38,473 nucleotides of DNA from a virus. Numbering within the stretch: the first letter of the stretch is position 1; each line of letters begins with the position of its first letter. The stretch is from positions 1 through 38,473 of the IMG/VR virus record IMGVR_UViG_3300046690_000087; one strand, written 5' to 3'. Position numbers and translations under genes: made by a program. The notes beneath the pieces were generated by a model. The model ran no database searches, was not told the origin of the DNA, and saw only the letters and a list, made by a program, of their open reading frames with translations. This document shows positions 2,845 to 35,933 of the stretch, one piece after another.

Positions 2845-3477
2845 ATGCAACAAGCTGAAGTTCACCGTGGAGTTGAGGATAAGAAGTTCGTTATCGTCGT
2901 AGATCGGCTCGGTGGCCGGGTTTCCTACGTCGATCCCGCAGGTCCGACCATTGATGTATGCACCATGAAGGCGGACCAGTTTACCAAGAAGTTCGTGTTG
3001 TCCAACCAAAATCCGGCTCACGCCGCCCGTGTGTGGATCCTCGGTCACAAGAAGATCAGCGAACGTGCCCGCGCCAAGCTGGATATCATTTCCCAAACGG
3101 AGTACACAATGACACAGGAAGCGCAAGGCCCAGTAGCGAATACGGATGGAACCCCTGCAACGCCGGTGAAGAAGACCCGCAAGACGAAGGTCGCCACTGG
3201 CGAAGCCAAGGCACCGGAAGCGCCGAAGCTGGACGCTGAGGGCAACCCCATCCCGGTTGTGGCGAAGAAGCGTAAGCCGAAGCCTGCGGCGGTCGCGTAC
3301 ACGCTGGACCAGAAGCTCACCGAAGTAGCAGCGAACCCGAAGCGGACGGGCTGCGCGGCGTATGATCGCTATGCGAAGTATGCCGTCGGCAAGTCGTTCA
3401 CCGAACTGTTGGCAGAAGGTCTTACGCGTCCGGACTTCGCGTACGATCTGGCCCACGGGTTCATCAAGGCCGCGTAA
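2845..3477 (+). CDS. Conserved phage protein with NPKRxGCAA C-terminal domain (paralogue of the 35340 gene)
   Basis: This 210-residue protein of unknown function starts at ATG 2845 after a very strong AAGGAGG site. Residues 1-88 form a compact-looking domain. Residues 89-150 are Lys/Ala/Pro-rich (VKKTRKTKVATGEAK, VAKKRKPKPAA). The last 60 residues contain NPKRTGCAAYDRY and end YDLAHGFIKAA. That C-terminal part matches the 35340 gene product (NPKRAGCAA, WDLAHGFIT), which also has a Lys/Ala-rich N-terminus. An in-frame ATG at 3109, with GGAG about 8 bases ahead, begins where the similarity to the paralogue begins, so a shorter second product is possible. The basic linker suggests nucleic-acid binding; this is inference. 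Confidence 0.8.
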   Translation: MQQAEVHRGVEDKKFVIVVDRLGGRVSYVDPAGPTIDVCTMKADQFTKKFVLSNQNPAHAARVWILGHKKISERARAKLDIISQTEYTMTQEAQGPVANTDGTPATPVKKTRKTKVATGEAKAPEAPKLDAEGNPIPVVAKKRKPKPAAVAYTLDQKLTEVAANPKRTGCAAYDRYAKYAVGKSFTELLAEGLTRPDFAYDLAHGFIKAA

Positions 3478-3495
3478 TTTCCCGTCGCTGCGGTG

Positions 3496-3523
3496 CAGAC
3501 CCCGGCCTGAGTGCCGGGGTCTG
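3496..3523 (+). terminator. Strong GC hairpin after the 2845 gene (terminator-like, no clear U-tract)
   Basis: An 11-bp perfect stem (CAGACCCCGGC with GCCGGGGTCTG) encloses a 6-base loop. It lies 19 bases after the stop at 3477 and before the glycosyltransferase start. No T-run follows, so it may be a weak terminator, a processing or stability hairpin, or an attenuator between two operons. Confidence 0.45.
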
Positions 3524-3547
3524 ATCACATCTGGAGGTCATCTAGTC

Positions 3548-4369
3548 ATGTACATCTACATTCCCACCAAAGGTCGCGGACCCAAGCTTCAGAAAACTGC
3601 CGATGCTTTGGCCTCGGTATCCGTGTTTCCCATCACGCTTGTCTGCCCGCCTGAAGAAGTTAAGGGTTTTCAAGCTGCCGGATACACTGCCGTAGCCTGT
3701 TCGGCCGAACGCATTGGGGCGACGCGCCAGTGGATCATCAACAACAGCCCCGACAAGAGCGTCCTGATGCTGGATGACGACTTGGGAAACTGGGCCTGCC
3801 GCATTCCCGGAACCCGTAGCTATCTGCCCGCCACCCAAGCGCAACTTCATCAGACACTAATAGATGTCGAGACAGCGTTGGAGGAATACGCTCACGTCGG
3901 CGTTGGGGCGAGGCTGTTCGCCAACAATCAAGAGGACACAGTCCTCAATGGCCGCATCACCCGTGCGTGGGGCATACGGGCCGACATTGTTAAAGAGCAC
4001 GACCTGAAGTTTACCTGCCCGGTAGACGATTTGGAAATGACCATCCAACTACTGCGGATGGGCTACGCCAACTGGATCACCTACATGACCGTGCAGGACC
4101 AGAAGGAAAGCCAGTCCCCCGGCGGAGCTTCTACCTACCGGACGCTGGAATATCACAACGCCTGCCACGAGCAGATTAATCGGTGGCACGCTGACTATAC
4201 TCGGCTAGTGGAAAAGACAACAAAGGCCGGATGGTTTGATGGTAAGCCCCGCAAGGAAGTAGTTATTTCTTGGGGAAAGCTAGTGAAAGAGTGCTACCCT
4301 GCCCCCATCCGGGAACGTGCTGAAGGTCTGGTGCGCGTCAGCCGTGGGCCGCGTCCTTATGAATATTAA
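3548..4369 (+). CDS. TAGT-like (TET-associated) GT-A-type glycosyltransferase, probable DNA-base modifier
   Basis: This 273-residue protein begins MYIYIPTKGRG, the usual opening strand and R-G of GT-A enzymes. Residues about 25-70 hold further Rossmann-like strands (ITLVCPPEEV). IGATRQWIIN follows, and then a clear acidic metal/nucleotide motif, VLMLDDDLGNW, near residue 80. The combination of I-P-T-(K/R)-GR, the (R)QWI helix and MLDDDL resembles the TET-associated glycosyltransferases that decorate hydroxymethylated pyrimidines in phage DNA. Two other apparent thymine-hypermodification genes lie nearby (the next gene and the 7245 gene). The start is ATG 3548, with GGAGG about 10 bases upstream. 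It could be another GT-A enzyme; a sugar transferred to 5-hydroxymethyl-dU is an inference. Confidence 0.7.
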   Translation: MYIYIPTKGRGPKLQKTADALASVSVFPITLVCPPEEVKGFQAAGYTAVACSAERIGATRQWIINNSPDKSVLMLDDDLGNWACRIPGTRSYLPATQAQLHQTLIDVETALEEYAHVGVGARLFANNQEDTVLNGRITRAWGIRADIVKEHDLKFTCPVDDLEMTIQLLRMGYANWITYMTVQDQKESQSPGGASTYRTLEYHNACHEQINRWHADYTRLVEKTTKAGWFDGKPRKEVVISWGKLVKECYPAPIRERAEGLVRVSRGPRPYEY

Positions 4370-5186
4370 GGAGCTGAGTTACTTTATCAAAGAACGAGTG
4401 GACATAGCCGTCCGACGGGGCCGGGGTGAACCGCCCCCATGGACGGCAGACACCATCCTCCGCACATATCGTTTCTGTAACGTATACCGGGAATGGGACC
4501 CCGTATCGGAGTTCATCCATCAATGGTTGGGGCCGTATGCCCATCACTGTGAAGCACGGGTGGCATTGGCCCGGTACATCAACGAACCACGGACGCTAGA
4601 CACTCTGGGGCGTTGCTCCCCGTGGGAACCTACCTCTGTTCTAGCCAACCTGAACATCTGGCGCTCCAGTGGCAACCGGGTGTTCAATCCTGCTTACATC
4701 GTCAGCACCAACGGTATCAAGCAGGATAAGCTGGAATATGTCGTGGAGTTGGTGACGCGGGTACACAACGAAGTTCATCTGGCGGGTAGCGAAACATTGT
4801 CTGAAGCTGCCAATATGTTCCAAGCGGTCCGGGGCGTAGGGTCGTTCATGGCAGGACAGATGGTGGCGGACCTGAAGCAACAGCCCGTGCTCGCCAACGC
4901 CGAAGACTGGTGGACGTGGTGTACTCCGGGGCCTGGAAGCCAACGGGGGCTGAATCGTGTGATGGGTAGACCCCTGAAATTCAAGTGGCCCCCGCAACTG
5001 TTCCGGGAAACATTGGTGGAGCTAGGCACGGAGCTCATCCCCATCATTCAATCCCTTCCCAAACCGTTGGACGCGCAGAATCTCCAGAACTGCCTTTGCG
5101 AGTTTGACAAGTGGAGTCGGGCCAAGAATGGTGAGGGTACTCCTAAGCAGATCTACGTTTCGTCCTCTTACAGAAATGGCAATTAA
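4359..5186 (+). CDS. Thymine DNA hypermodification protein (5-hmdU DNA kinase helical / aGPT-Pplase-like)
   Basis: This 275-residue, mainly helical protein carries the signature of the 5-hmdU DNA kinase helical and alpha-glutamyl/putrescinyl-thymine pyrophosphorylase group. An N-terminal helix (LSYFIKERVDIAVRR) is followed by GEPPPWTADTILRTYRFCNVYREWDPVSEF; the PWT.D.IL..YRF.NV.RE.D core is diagnostic in my judgement. Near the C-terminus, RGVGSFMAGQMVADL resembles the family's G-(I/V)-G-x-F-MA-x-Q helix-hairpin segment. I see no Walker A, so calling it a kinase is not secure; the family acts after 5-hydroxymethyl-dU has been incorporated into DNA. It overlaps the glycosyltransferase gene by 11 bp, so the two are probably co-translated. 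The site before ATG 4359 is weak, consistent with coupling. Confidence 0.75.
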   Translation: MNIKELSYFIKERVDIAVRRGRGEPPPWTADTILRTYRFCNVYREWDPVSEFIHQWLGPYAHHCEARVALARYINEPRTLDTLGRCSPWEPTSVLANLNIWRSSGNRVFNPAYIVSTNGIKQDKLEYVVELVTRVHNEVHLAGSETLSEAANMFQAVRGVGSFMAGQMVADLKQQPVLANAEDWWTWCTPGPGSQRGLNRVMGRPLKFKWPPQLFRETLVELGTELIPIIQSLPKPLDAQNLQNCLCEFDKWSRAKNGEGTPKQIYVSSSYRNGN

Positions 5187-7244: not shown

Positions 7245-8216
7245 ATGCACGTAGTCCAAGCACGGAATGTCAACGGTGCGCTGTGCGATATGCTCTGGCG
7301 CGTAAAGACCAGTGGCGTCAAGGTCGACACCCGCAACGGCCCCGCCCTGAAGATAGATGCCCCGGTATGCGTCACGTACACCCGTCCACAGGAACGGGTG
7401 CTGTTCAATCCCATGCGCGATGCCAACCCGTTCTTCCACTTTATGGAGGCCTTGTGGATGCTTGGCGGGCGGGATGACGTAGCGTTTCTGACTACGTTCC
7501 TGCCCCGTATGAAGGAGTACAGTGATGACGGAGCCACGCTCGCGGGTGCCTACGGGTATCGGTGGCGGCAGCACTGGGAGTTCGATCAACTGGCCTACGT
7601 ATCCCGGCTGTTGCAGGAAGACCCTACGACGCGGCGGGCTGTACTCACCATGTGGGACCCGCAGGTGGATCTCACGTTGGAGGAGGGGCGCAAAGACCGC
7701 CCCTGCAACCTGAACGCCATGTTCCAGATCAACAACGGCAATCTGGATATGATGGTGACCAATCGTAGCAACGACATCATCTGGGGAATGTGCGGGGCCA
7801 ATGCCGTACACTTCGCATTCTTGCAGGAGTACATAGCCCGCAGAATTGGGGTGCCCGTGGGGATGTATCACCAGGTCAGCTTCAACGCACACGTTTACCT
7901 GAACGAGCAGTACGAAAAGCTGTCCTTCGTTCCGTATTCGGATGACCGCTACTTGACAAACAATATGCGGGCGCTCCCCATGCTCTGTACTACCGACGAG
8001 TTTGATGAGGACCTGCAAAAGTTTCTAGAGCGCCCAGAAGACACAGCGGATTTCACCACCAGTTACTTCACCGACTACGTGTGCCGCATCTGGGATGCGT
8101 GGTGGCTTCACAAAGAGGGGGATAAGGAGGCAGCGTTGAAGTGCATCGGGGCCATACCGGGCTGCGACTGGAGCATTGCCTGCTACGAATGGTTGGAACG
8201 GAGGTGCCTCAAGTGA
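7245..8216 (+). CDS. Thymidylate synthase family protein, probable dUMP hydroxymethylase
   Basis: This 323-residue protein belongs to the thymidylate synthase/hydroxymethylase fold. NPFFHFMEALWMLGG and YGYRWR near the N-terminal third are typical. The nucleophile lies in RPCNLNAMFQI, and the substrate loop reads RSNDIIWGMCGANAVHF where classical ThyA has RSxDxxLGxPFN. Phage relatives with the RSND..WG..GAN form include nucleotide hydroxymethylases. In context (glycosyltransferase and hmdU-type protein nearby) I infer that it makes 5-hydroxymethyl-dUMP. A plain thymidylate synthase cannot be excluded from sequence alone. ATG 7245 has a perfect AAGGAG site. The stop overlaps the next GTG start. 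Confidence 0.88.
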   Translation: MHVVQARNVNGALCDMLWRVKTSGVKVDTRNGPALKIDAPVCVTYTRPQERVLFNPMRDANPFFHFMEALWMLGGRDDVAFLTTFLPRMKEYSDDGATLAGAYGYRWRQHWEFDQLAYVSRLLQEDPTTRRAVLTMWDPQVDLTLEEGRKDRPCNLNAMFQINNGNLDMMVTNRSNDIIWGMCGANAVHFAFLQEYIARRIGVPVGMYHQVSFNAHVYLNEQYEKLSFVPYSDDRYLTNNMRALPMLCTTDEFDEDLQKFLERPEDTADFTTSYFTDYVCRIWDAWWLHKEGDKEAALKCIGAIPGCDWSIACYEWLERRCLK

Positions 8217-32775: not shown

Positions 32776-34124
32776 CATATTCTCCTGTTCCACCGACCCA
32801 TCGGTGGTGGAAGTGTCTTCCAGAGCTCGTTAAGCTGCATCCCCTGAGACATTGGGGGTTTTTCACGATATTTCGGCGGCACCCATATGGACTGCGAAAC
32901 ACCAAAGTCCTCGCGGTAGCCCAGTGCTCCTATCCGCAAGGCGTCGGCATAGTGAGATGTCCAGTCGTGGCGGGGCCGTTCATGAAATGCCTTCTTGTCT
33001 TCACTCCACTCGCGTTGGTATTGCTTCAATGCCTCCATACCGACTCGGCAATTTTGGGCATCAAAGCACGCAATGCCGAGCATCTTTCTTGTGGCCTGTA
33101 TTCCATCCTGTACGGACATCTCGGGGGCGATACGCCCGCGTATGTCGAAGGAAAGTAGCTGCTCCTGCATACTGCGGCCCGTCTGTAGGGACTTGGCCCG
33201 CACATCGTGGGGCAGATAATACGTCCCGTAAGTCCAGCCATACTGGTCTTTCTTGTTATGCAGAACATCAACGTAGTCGCTTATCTGCAGACCCGATGCT
33301 GCGTAGCAGTCAAAGAAAATAGGGCGGTTAGCAATGACCTGGAAAAACCAGATAACCGTATCGTCGGTGTAACCCAGATCCCAACAGGTGTAGACCTTAT
33401 GGCCTTCTTCGTAGGGGTAGATTCCAACGCGGTTTTCGAGGATGGCTCGGTTGATATCCCGCCCGTAGAAGCTCCCTCGTATCGCCGCATCGAAGCTGCA
33501 CTCGTACTCCTGGGCGTATTCTTCTTCATCCATCATCTCCCGGGCCTGCCTTAACTCCTCCTCGTCCAGAATGTGGGACTCGGACGCCCGGAGGATCATG
33601 CTAAACCACTCTGGGTTATTCTGCGCTTTATCCCAGATGTCCCAGAACTCATTCTTCCCTGCCGGTGTTCCCATAAACACCGCCCACCCCTTGCGATCGC
33701 TCAGTGCGGGCCGGATAATCTCCGGCCAGAGGCGTGGTTTTTGCTGAGCCGGTTCATCCATGAGGACACCGTCGTGATACAGCCCCCGCAGTGCGTCGGG
33801 GTTATCCCCTCCAAACAGGCGGACTCTTGAGTTATTCACAAGCTCGACCGTGAGTTCCGCGATATTAGCCTTTCTACGAAAGGGGGCGCTATACCGGAGG
33901 AGATAATCCCACGCTACTGACTTGGCCTGGGAATAGAATGGTGCCACGTAAGAGTATCTAGCGTTCTCCTTGGGCGTATACATCGCCCTCTCTACTAATT
34001 CGTTCACTCCCGCTACGGTCTTACCTGCGCGCCTGTGACATACTAGCACTCCCCACCGCTGCGTCCTCTCGTGGAAAGGTATAAACTGGTGGCGGGGGCT
34101 GTAGATACTGTGGAGTTCATCCAC
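32775..34124 (-). CDS. terL: Terminase large subunit (DNA-packaging ATPase/nuclease)
   Basis: This 449-residue protein has Walker A-type VCHRRAGKT (about residues 28-37), the Walker B/catalytic pair GVLMDEPAQ (about 115-123) and the C-motif/coupling region AVFMGTPAGKNEF. In the nuclease half, YTCWDLGYTDDTVIWFF carries the first acidic residue, and the C-terminal part has HDWTSHYADALR, the last metal-binding Asp line. It packages DNA through the portal and cuts it. GTG 34124 is chosen, with GGAAGG upstream; it overlaps the 34398 gene by 8 bp and the portal start at its end. Confidence 0.95.
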   Translation of the reverse strand: MDELHSIYSPRHQFIPFHERTQRWGVLVCHRRAGKTVAGVNELVERAMYTPKENARYSYVAPFYSQAKSVAWDYLLRYSAPFRRKANIAELTVELVNNSRVRLFGGDNPDALRGLYHDGVLMDEPAQQKPRLWPEIIRPALSDRKGWAVFMGTPAGKNEFWDIWDKAQNNPEWFSMILRASESHILDEEELRQAREMMDEEEYAQEYECSFDAAIRGSFYGRDINRAILENRVGIYPYEEGHKVYTCWDLGYTDDTVIWFFQVIANRPIFFDCYAASGLQISDYVDVLHNKKDQYGWTYGTYYLPHDVRAKSLQTGRSMQEQLLSFDIRGRIAPEMSVQDGIQATRKMLGIACFDAQNCRVGMEALKQYQREWSEDKKAFHERPRHDWTSHYADALRIGALGYREDFGVSQSIWVPPKYREKPPMSQGMQLNELWKTLPPPMGRWNRRI

Positions 34125-34398
34125 TCGACTCTACCTTCCGGACCAGCTCTCCCTCCAACGCGGGCAGCTCTCCATCAAGGGGTGACTGTTTGATGGAGTG
34201 GACAACCTTGAACACATGCTCTCCTAGTGGACCAGCTCCCCTCACCTCCTGAGGCATTTGCTTCTCTATCATCTCTACAAGTTTCGTGTTGTGGGCTCTC
34301 CAATACGCCCGACACCACTGAGGGGTGGCTACCTCAAGCGCAGCCGTCGTCAGACGTTCCTTGAGAGTATCGACGTTTTTCTTTACGATATCGTCCAT
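34117..34398 (-). CDS. Candidate terminase small subunit
   Basis: This 93-residue protein is mostly helical (VDTLKERLTTAALEVAT; NTKLVEMIEKQMPQEV). Its place immediately before TerL with an 8-bp overlap is where the small subunit usually lies, but there is no clear helix-turn-helix. The sequence is too divergent for a family match, so the name rests on context. The ATG lies only 6 bases after the predicted -10 box, so its transcript may be leaderless. Confidence 0.55.
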   Translation of the reverse strand: MDDIVKKNVDTLKERLTTAALEVATPQWCRAYWRAHNTKLVEMIEKQMPQEVRGAGPLGEHVFKVVHSIKQSPLDGELPALEGELVRKVESSG

Positions 34399-34433: not shown

Positions 34434-34570
34434 GTATTTCCGCAGGTGGTTCCCTTTTCCTGATGTAAATATCTCACCGGACTGTCTCATTCCTAATACT
34501 CTCGCTGGAACGTGGAAGGTGGGGGCGACTCCACAGGGCCACCCCCGCCTGCGGGCTCACTAGGGGGTGC

Positions 34571-34628
34571 CTAGACCACAGACAACAGAACGTTTGTGGT
34601 TTTGCGAAAAGACAACAGACCTAGACCA
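34571..34628 (+). repeat. Nested direct repeats CTAGACCA and AGACAACAGA
   Basis: CTAGACCA occurs at 34571-34578 and 34621-34628, and AGACAACAGA at 34580-34589 and 34610-34619. The order is CTAGACCA, AGACAACAGA, spacer, AGACAACAGA, CTAGACCA. The spacer region also contains TGTGGT, which can pair with ACCACA at the left. It may be a protein-binding site. Confidence 0.5.
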
Positions 34629-34742
34629 AGGACGCAACAGTGGATACGAAAGAGCTCATCGCGAATTCAGCTCCACATCGCGCGCATCGGCACCAGAACG
34701 CGATTATAGACGCGCCGACGCCGGTCTACGGAGGGGGGCCTA

Positions 34743-35122
34743 TGCATAGGGGCAGAGCGTGCAAGGGGGCTCTTGTGCAGGCCGTGCAAATGCATAGGGC
34801 TGTAATAAGGGGTATGTTATGTATATATATCATGTTTTATAGTCTTATATATAACTACCCTGCACACCCACACCCACGGGCGTAGAGCCACGCACCAATA
34901 TGGAGCACCCATGCACCATTGCAGGGTTGAGAATGAAGCATTTTCCTTCAGTGCCTGAATTCAGCACAATGTGTCGTCCCGCGTCACCCTTGCTCCCCTG
35001 TGCAGGGTGCCGTGCAAGGGCGGCACAATGTGCCCTCTAGCGGCACCCAGCACATACTATGCCATACTATACCCAGTCGCCCTAAATGTTGGGCAAGGGT
35101 GCAGGGCGTTACCCTTGCACCC
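34743..35122 (+). repeat. TGCA-rich iteron-like cluster with GTGCA(A/G)GGG copies and inverted repeats
   Basis: TGCA begins at 34743, 34760, 34776, 34785, 34791, 34861, 34912, 34920, 35001, 35013, 35100 and 35116, twelve copies in about 375 bp. Several extend to GTGCAAGGG or GTGCAGGG in either orientation. GCAAGGGT (35093-35100) pairs with ACCCTTGC (35111-35118), and CCCTTGC (34987-34993) pairs with GCAAGGG (35014-35020). GCACAATGTG is repeated directly at 34964-34973 and 35023-35032. Confidence 0.5.
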
Positions 35123-35320
35123 GGCACAGACCGGCGCAACCCCACCTAAACGCGACCAAGCGCCACGCAGAGCACGCACCCGCTACCTACCCCGCCACTG
35201 GCACCCTCTCGCCCGCCTATGGCCCCATTTGCGCTCCGTCCAAATAGTTGGCCCAAACCCGCGCTCCTGGCATGGCGCTTGCTCTATATACTGTGCGGGG
35301 CCGACCGGCACCCGCCAAAC

Positions 35321-35334
35321 CCGCCACTTGGAGA
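35321..35334 (+). promoter_or_regulatory. Degenerate CCACCAC-type leader (possible eighth copy)
   Basis: CCGCCACTTGGAGA differs from CCACCACAAGGAGA at three of 14 positions and lies five bases before ATG 35340. It supplies the GGAG site for that gene. Confidence 0.4.
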
Positions 35335-35339
35335 AAACC

Positions 35340-35792
35340 ATGGCACGCAAGAACAGCACGAAAAAGGCCGCGCAAGCGCCTAGCACGCCCGTTGTGACCG
35401 TTGTGAGCGCACCCGCGCAAGATGCACCCGTTGTGACCGTTGTAAACGCACCCGCACCCGCGGAAACCACGGCGATTACGCCCGCGCAAGTGGCGGCGAA
35501 CGCAGTGGCACCCGCGAAAGCGCCGCGCTACGTTACGCGGGCGAATTTTAACTTGCAGCAGACCGTGGCGACGGTTGTGCCCAACCCGAAGCGGGCCGGA
35601 TGCGCTGCCCACACGGCATTTTCGTTTTACGAAGTTGGCGCTACGCTTGCCGCGTGCATGGAAAATAGCGCCAAAGCGGGCCACAAGGGAAAATTCGCCC
35701 TGCTGACCGCGAACGTGGCGTGGGATTTGGCCCACGGGTTTATAACGCTGAACGCCGTGGCGACCGCGCCAGTTGCCGCAGAAACCAAGTAA
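35340..35792 (+). CDS. NPKRxGCAA-domain protein (paralogue of the 2845 gene)
   Basis: This 150-residue protein starts MARKNSTKKAAQAP, a short basic N-terminus, followed by an Ala/Pro/Val-rich stretch in which PVVTVV(S/N)AP is repeated. The C-terminal domain carries NPKRAGCAAH and ends WDLAHGFITLNAV, matching NPKRTGCAAY and YDLAHGFIKAA in the 2845 gene product. The domain recurs in small phage proteins of unknown function. GGAG lies 6 bases before ATG 35340. A terminator-like hairpin follows the stop. It is the first gene of the right-hand cluster, suggesting strong early expression. Confidence 0.75.
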   Translation: MARKNSTKKAAQAPSTPVVTVVSAPAQDAPVVTVVNAPAPAETTAITPAQVAANAVAPAKAPRYVTRANFNLQQTVATVVPNPKRAGCAAHTAFSFYEVGATLAACMENSAKAGHKGKFALLTANVAWDLAHGFITLNAVATAPVAAETK

Positions 35793-35807
35793 GCGCCGAA
35801 AGGCGTA

Positions 35808-35838
35808 GCCAAGAGCCCCGAAGTTTGGGGCTGTTGGC
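35808..35838 (+). terminator. Terminator-like hairpin after the 35340 gene
   Basis: GCCAAGAGCCCC pairs with GGGGCTGTTGGC (11 of 12 bases) around a 7-base loop, and ATTTCT follows. The stem starts 16 bases after the stop at 35792. The U-tract is short, so partial read-through to the downstream genes is expected. Confidence 0.6.
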
Positions 35839-35900
35839 ATTTCTAAGCTCTGCCGCGAAGTACCACCGTCGGCTGCGTTTAGAAATGCCCTCCGGCAGAG
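35836..35900 (+). ncRNA. Candidate pseudoknot RNA element
   Basis: GGCATTTCTAA (35836-35846) is complementary to TTAGAAATGCC (35879-35889), 11 bp. CTCTGCCG (35848-35855) is complementary to CGGCAGAG (35893-35900), 8 bp. The strands occur in the order S1, S2, S1', S2', the pattern of an H-type pseudoknot. An A-rich run follows. The first strand shares three bases with the upstream terminator stem, so the two structures could compete. It may be a small RNA, an RNA-stability element or a regulator of the following genes. Confidence 0.45.
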
Positions 35901-35933
35901 AAAAAATAAATCTTTCAATCTAGGAAAAATAAA

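Follow-up and report, generated by a model that had tools for sequence, protein, structure and literature searches.

The stretch of DNA analysed here (the window) is a phage contig, a virus record of 38,473 bases, and the non-coding, repeat-rich region between its two divergent gene blocks is probably the main control region of the phage. It is possibly also the replication origin, and sequence alone cannot separate the two roles. We give an even chance to the combined reading, namely a main early/late control region with a sigma-54-type promoter for gp150, the first gene to its right. The control region would then be organised around gp150: host sigma-54 RNA polymerase would transcribe this gene from a -24/-12 promoter, and a DNA-binding protein of phage or host origin would occupy an array of CCYTGCAC-type sites. 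The array encloses the genome's most easily melted stretch together with a long inverted repeat, and would most likely act as a replication origin, as an operator/enhancer of divergent promoters, or as both. The sequence comparisons establish that the elements are present, non-random and conserved among relatives, that they move with gp150, and that the promoter consensus is there; binding of a protein, sigma-54 use, opening of the strands and an origin role are inferred from these. A repeat-rich divergent control region is ordinary for a phage; a promoter of the -24/-12 type is seldom reported in phages, and its presence here, with the same motif clustered in other phages, may surprise a specialist.

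The leftward genes extend from around 34.4 kb to 10.4 kb and comprise putative TerS, TerL, portal, capsid, tail and lysis genes. In the rightward direction gp150 comes first, at 35340, and is followed, across the contig ends, by exonuclease, helicase, glucosyltransferase-like, 5-hmdU-kinase-like, VapE-like primase and thymidylate-synthase-like genes. A gap of 941 bp between 34398 and 35340 separates the divergent flanking genes and holds no convincing gene. This layout confirms the first-pass annotation, which had placed the region between a leftward late and a rightward early-type block in a phage with its own primase-helicase; both the VapE-like primase and the helicase genes lie in the window. 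The putative terS gave no match in a family search. Profile and single-protein scans returned only two close relatives in IMG/VR: a 41.7-kb genome (L002/L005; TerL 96%), which has a 127-bp terminal overlap and is probably a circular assembly, and a 4.4-kb contig (L006; TerL 92%). Compared with the circular relative, around 4 kb is missing between the window ends (38473 / 1), and in that relative the stretch encodes a family-A DNA polymerase. L003 is a distant relative (TerL 57%, gp150 54%), and 80 TerL-distant phage loci (TerL 45-52%) were used as a background set only. A search of genome contigs found no relative, and the region DNA had no match in phage records. The features of the region are listed in Table 1.

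Table 1. Features in and around the divergent region (window coordinates; strand + rightward, - leftward,. no strand).
Feature	Position	Strand	Basis or remark
Putative small terminase gene (terS)	34117..34398	-	First late-block gene; by position only, without family match
Conserved non-coding block next to putative terS; candidate packaging site or leader	34518..34655	.	Alignment; nested repeats 34570-34633
12-TGCA cluster, many CCYTGCAC in either orientation; candidate protein-binding array	34743..35119	.	Site counts, flank consensus
AT-rich patch, candidate unwinding element	34800..34859	.	Least stable 60-mer of window
Conserved box CCCTGCACACCCACACCCACGGGCGTAGA, right of AT-rich patch	34858..34886	.	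Alignment
Two GCACAATGTG repeats	34964-34973, 35023-35032	.	Second copy is the tip of the 34999..35054 inverted repeat
Long imperfect inverted repeat, hairpin/cruciform potential; two TGCA sites inside	34999..35054	.	Fold z-score -3.3
Near-palindrome CATACTATGCCATACTATA overlapping leftward one-mismatch -24/-12 match TGGCATAGTATGTGCT	35049..35071	-	Alignment, motif scan
Perfect -24/-12 (sigma-54-type) promoter match TGGCATGGCGCTTGCT	35268..35283	+	Ends 57 bp before gp150 start codon
gp150, 150-aa; low-complexity N-terminus, conserved C-terminal WDLAHGFITL motif	35340..35792	+	Sequence comparison; no family match

A scan for the pattern TGGCAY-N5-TTGCW yields one perfect match in the window, at 35268-35283. 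The first-pass annotation described the repeat features of the region correctly but overlooked this match, which is its best-defined element. The background occurrence of the motif is low (3 in 627,816 bp of the 80 TerL-distant loci), and both close relatives carry a perfect match in the same place, with spacers that differ across the three genomes (GGCGC, GGCCC, ACCAG). Because of this match, at least part of the region is best read as a transcription element. As in bacterial sigma-54 promoters, the consensus lies at a plausible distance from the gene, with the other repeats and the palindrome farther upstream. Unlike them, it is found in a phage, without activator sites of the NtrC or NifA type, and no gene for sigma-54 or a sigma-54 activator is found in the window or its relatives; the gp150 promoter would rely on the sigma-54 of the host. 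L003 has a one-mismatch copy at the corresponding place and four perfect copies nearby. Some of these copies are arms of inverted repeats, and given this arrangement the motif might be the site of another protein; in L004 the site is absent. Keyword searches of the open-access literature did not turn up any sigma-54 promoter described within a phage genome, a negative that carries little weight.

These observations bear on a possible alternative that we place somewhat below an even chance, in which the region is a pure transcription switch, with operators/enhancers plus divergent promoters that serve gp150/early genes on one side and late genes on the other, and plays no part in replication. 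Besides the perfect match ahead of gp150, such a switch would account for the leftward one-mismatch match at 35049-35071, which is conserved together with its near-palindrome (a perfect CATACTATG-C-CATAGTATG in L006) and is a candidate operator or late promoter. It would also suit the HTH protein gene at 108-326 and the early/late divide itself. It is less easily reconciled with the failure to find NtrC-type GCAC-N7-GTGC or NifA-type activator sites in the region, with a sigma-70 promoter scan that gave nothing above chance and no convincing candidate, and with the position of the TGCA sites, which are grouped around the weakest duplex and not around any recognised promoter.

The twelve TGCA sites (starting at 34743, 34760, 34776, 34785, 34791, 34861, 34912, 34920, 35001, 35013, 35100 and 35116) fall in 377 bp, where around 1.5 are expected at the window-wide rate (155 in 38,473 bp). 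The reported excess thus holds, and it is above all 300 dinucleotide shuffles of the whole window, in which the maximum was 9 per 375 bp. Extended sites in both orientations are likewise present as described: GTGCAAGGG occurs in three copies, in both orientations and within the window only in this region, and GTGCAGGG shows the same pattern. Spacings are irregular (6-88 bp). Six of the eight CCYTGCAC copies in the window lie in the region, which makes up 2.4% of its length, and two lie elsewhere.

That these sites are a functionless accident of composition, a local rise of TGCA within GC-rich intergenic DNA, is improbable. Shuffling the 901-bp region by itself gives a mean of 5.8 TGCA against the observed 12 (around twofold, p ~0.007), and part of the excess is therefore local composition. 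Densities of 9-12 TGCA per 375 bp are also reached in TerL-distant phage loci, and the density therefore stands out within this genome but not among phages generally. Nonetheless, an accident would explain neither the concentration of CCYTGCAC nor the conservation of non-coding blocks, of site density and of flanks in the relatives. Individual positions turn over, while the density stays (13, 13 and 11 per 0.95 kb in the window and the two close relatives), the count in L006 alone not being significant (p 0.12). Pooled over four genomes, the oriented flanks again give the consensus CCYTGCAC, with an information content of 2.93 bits; the highest value among 200 random sets of TGCA sites was 2.64. 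L003 has nine sites within around 210 bp; in L004 the cluster is absent.

The A+T-rich patch noted at first reading is the weakest duplex of the window. The least stable 60-mer lies upstream of gp150 at rank 1 in four of five genomes (the window, L006, L003 and L004) and at rank 2 in the circular relative, and TGCA sites adjoin the least stable duplex in most relatives. The patch fits an origin and a promoter region alike, because the weakest duplex tends to fall between divergent genes in any case. An example is Stenotrophomonas phage BUCT555, a distant portal relative that likewise has a non-coding early/late divide, a late block starting with terminase genes and its weakest duplex at that place. 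Unlike the region studied here, that of BUCT555 contains only one TGCA, no -24/-12 site and what looks by eye like a sigma-70-type promoter.

The nested direct repeats (CCTAGACCA at 34570 and 34620; AGACAACAGA at 34580 and 34610) and the GCACAATGTG repeats are all found as first described. Short-repeat density peaks in the region, reaching 27 repeated 9-mers in 600 bp (window mean 4.35), although the stretches with the highest counts also include the start of gp150, which is of low complexity; the same region is likewise densest in repeats in the nearest complete relative. An alignment bears out the conservation of the region, as TGCA density, AT-rich patch and inverted repeats are all kept upstream of gp150, and four non-coding blocks are retained in the two close relatives (34518-34655, kept mainly in the circular one, 34798-34886, 34999-35071 and 35268-35290). 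Pairing of the 34999-35054 inverted repeat is maintained across the three relatives' sequences with no compensatory changes, so that selection on its structure is at most a possibility. An Rfam scan of the window gave no match up to E = 1. Two further structures were observed: a strong stem-loop after gp150 (window 35795-35905, z -5.6), whose inverted repeat GGCATTTCTAA / TTAGAAATGCC can be seen in both close relatives as well, and, at 4578-4698 of L003, a 120-bp set in which GGCACGAATCTTGC units recur as nested direct and inverted repeats and which has a very stable fold.

Comparison of the gp150 product with protein families, PDB sequences and PDB folds gave no match; its BFVD matches are not significant, its structure model is of low confidence, and no homologue was found in phage records. 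In L003, TGCA cluster, least stable duplex, a CACACACCCC stretch, an inverted-repeat cluster and gp150 follow each other in this order, and the whole unit points toward the terminase genes, inverted relative to the late genes when compared with the window. The region therefore moves with gp150 and is not a marker of the early/late boundary as such. In L021 and L022 (~3574-4300), the C-terminal domain of gp150 (WDxAHG) has paralogues arranged in tandem, each preceded by its own promoter-like repeat (read by eye).

Iteron-type theta origins with an AT-rich unwinding element are known from SaPI, phage P4 and the lambda ori. The region resembles them in that multi-copy short sites adjoin the weakest duplex and that the phage encodes a VapE-like primase. 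It departs from them in that the sites are irregular, degenerate and in both orientations, where iterons have regular spacing and a common orientation, and no recognised initiator gene is adjacent; origin activity is putative. Of the iteron-plus-unwinding-element layout proposed in the first-pass annotation, the repeat-rich conserved divergent region, the AT-rich patch and the replication genes stand; the irregular TGCA spacing and the lack of DnaA and IHF boxes in the window's region do not agree with it. The proposed check by cumulative GC skew also gave a divided answer. Its minimum, at 35483, is near the region (maximum at ~13.1 kb), and the minimum of the circular relative lies 1249 bp right of the contig join, corresponding to ~36.1 kb in window coordinates and thus ~0.6 kb away. 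The minimum at 35483 is, however, collinear with the switch in gene direction, and the skew at four-fold sites is weak and uneven and could not separate replication from transcription.

The region may accordingly be read as a replication origin proper, where an initiator bound to TGCA iterons would melt the AT-rich patch for bidirectional theta replication and the transcription elements would be incidental. We weight this as we do the pure switch; both functions may coexist, and the readings overlap and do not sum to one. The adjoining of site array and least stable DNA argues for an origin, together with the inverted repeats (including the 120-bp set in L003), the phage's own primase-helicase and helicase, the DNA polymerase A of the relative and the nearby skew minima in both genomes. 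Its weight is lowered by the ambiguous skew, the irregular sites, the missing DnaA and IHF boxes and the example of BUCT555, as well as by the lack of a recognised initiator, for which gp150 and the HTH protein (108-326) are candidates. If the array doubles as an origin, this phage, which appears to produce hypermodified DNA, would offer a compact candidate replicon. A likely DNA-hypermodification cassette is found in the window at 3362-4369, 4317-5186 and 7245-8216, with glucosyltransferase-like (phrog_842), 5-hmdU DNA kinase helical domain (PF18723) and thymidylate-synthase-like (phrog_5131) genes.

The terS-proximal block at 34518-34655 raises a separate question, as it could be a cos or pac packaging site recognised by the terminase, which we consider unlikely. 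It lies just upstream of the putative small terminase gene, contains the nested direct repeats and is the most conserved non-coding part versus the circular relative, where it is nearly identical; its GC-rich core (34518-34555) is kept in all three genomes. A pattern scan finds this core in the two close relatives only and not in L003, which counts against a packaging site, as does the 127-bp terminal overlap of the circular relative, which is probably an assembly overlap and not a mapped end. RNA folds of 34500-34660 are unremarkable.

Returning to the sigma-54-type promoter of the combined reading, the longer pattern TGGCACN5TTGCTCTATAT occurs in 33 IMG/VR stretches, and in several of the phages concerned the general motif is clustered. 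Ten records were picked for holding the motif once, and only additional copies count: G008 has 12 copies in 22.8 kb, all within ~6 kb; G010 has 11 copies in 303 kb, nine of which lie on the same strand within 13 kb; and G009 has 6 copies in 31.9 kb. The reversed pattern, used as a control, gave zero matches in all ten records. None of the ten (0/10) contains a match to sigma-54 (PF04552), and activator-domain matches were limited to weak ones in G010. The chance falls only just short of even that several unrelated environmental phages, including this one, exploit host sigma-54 RNA polymerase through -24/-12 promoters before phage genes, some of them clustered, with no recognisable sigma-54 of their own in the ten records. 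If the -24/-12 element is used, gp150 at the early/late divide would depend on a nitrogen/stress-type sigma factor of the host, and infection would in this way be coupled to the physiology of the host. With the clusters of G008 and G010, the idea of a phage transcription programme based on sigma-54 could be tested directly. Sigma-54-type clusters, on contigs without a recognisable sigma-54 gene, were observed in the IMG/VR records behind L121 (G008), L124 (G010), L113 (G009), L117 (G006) and L122 (G007), and some of the motif clusters share a leader, TATAAGAAAGAGAG.
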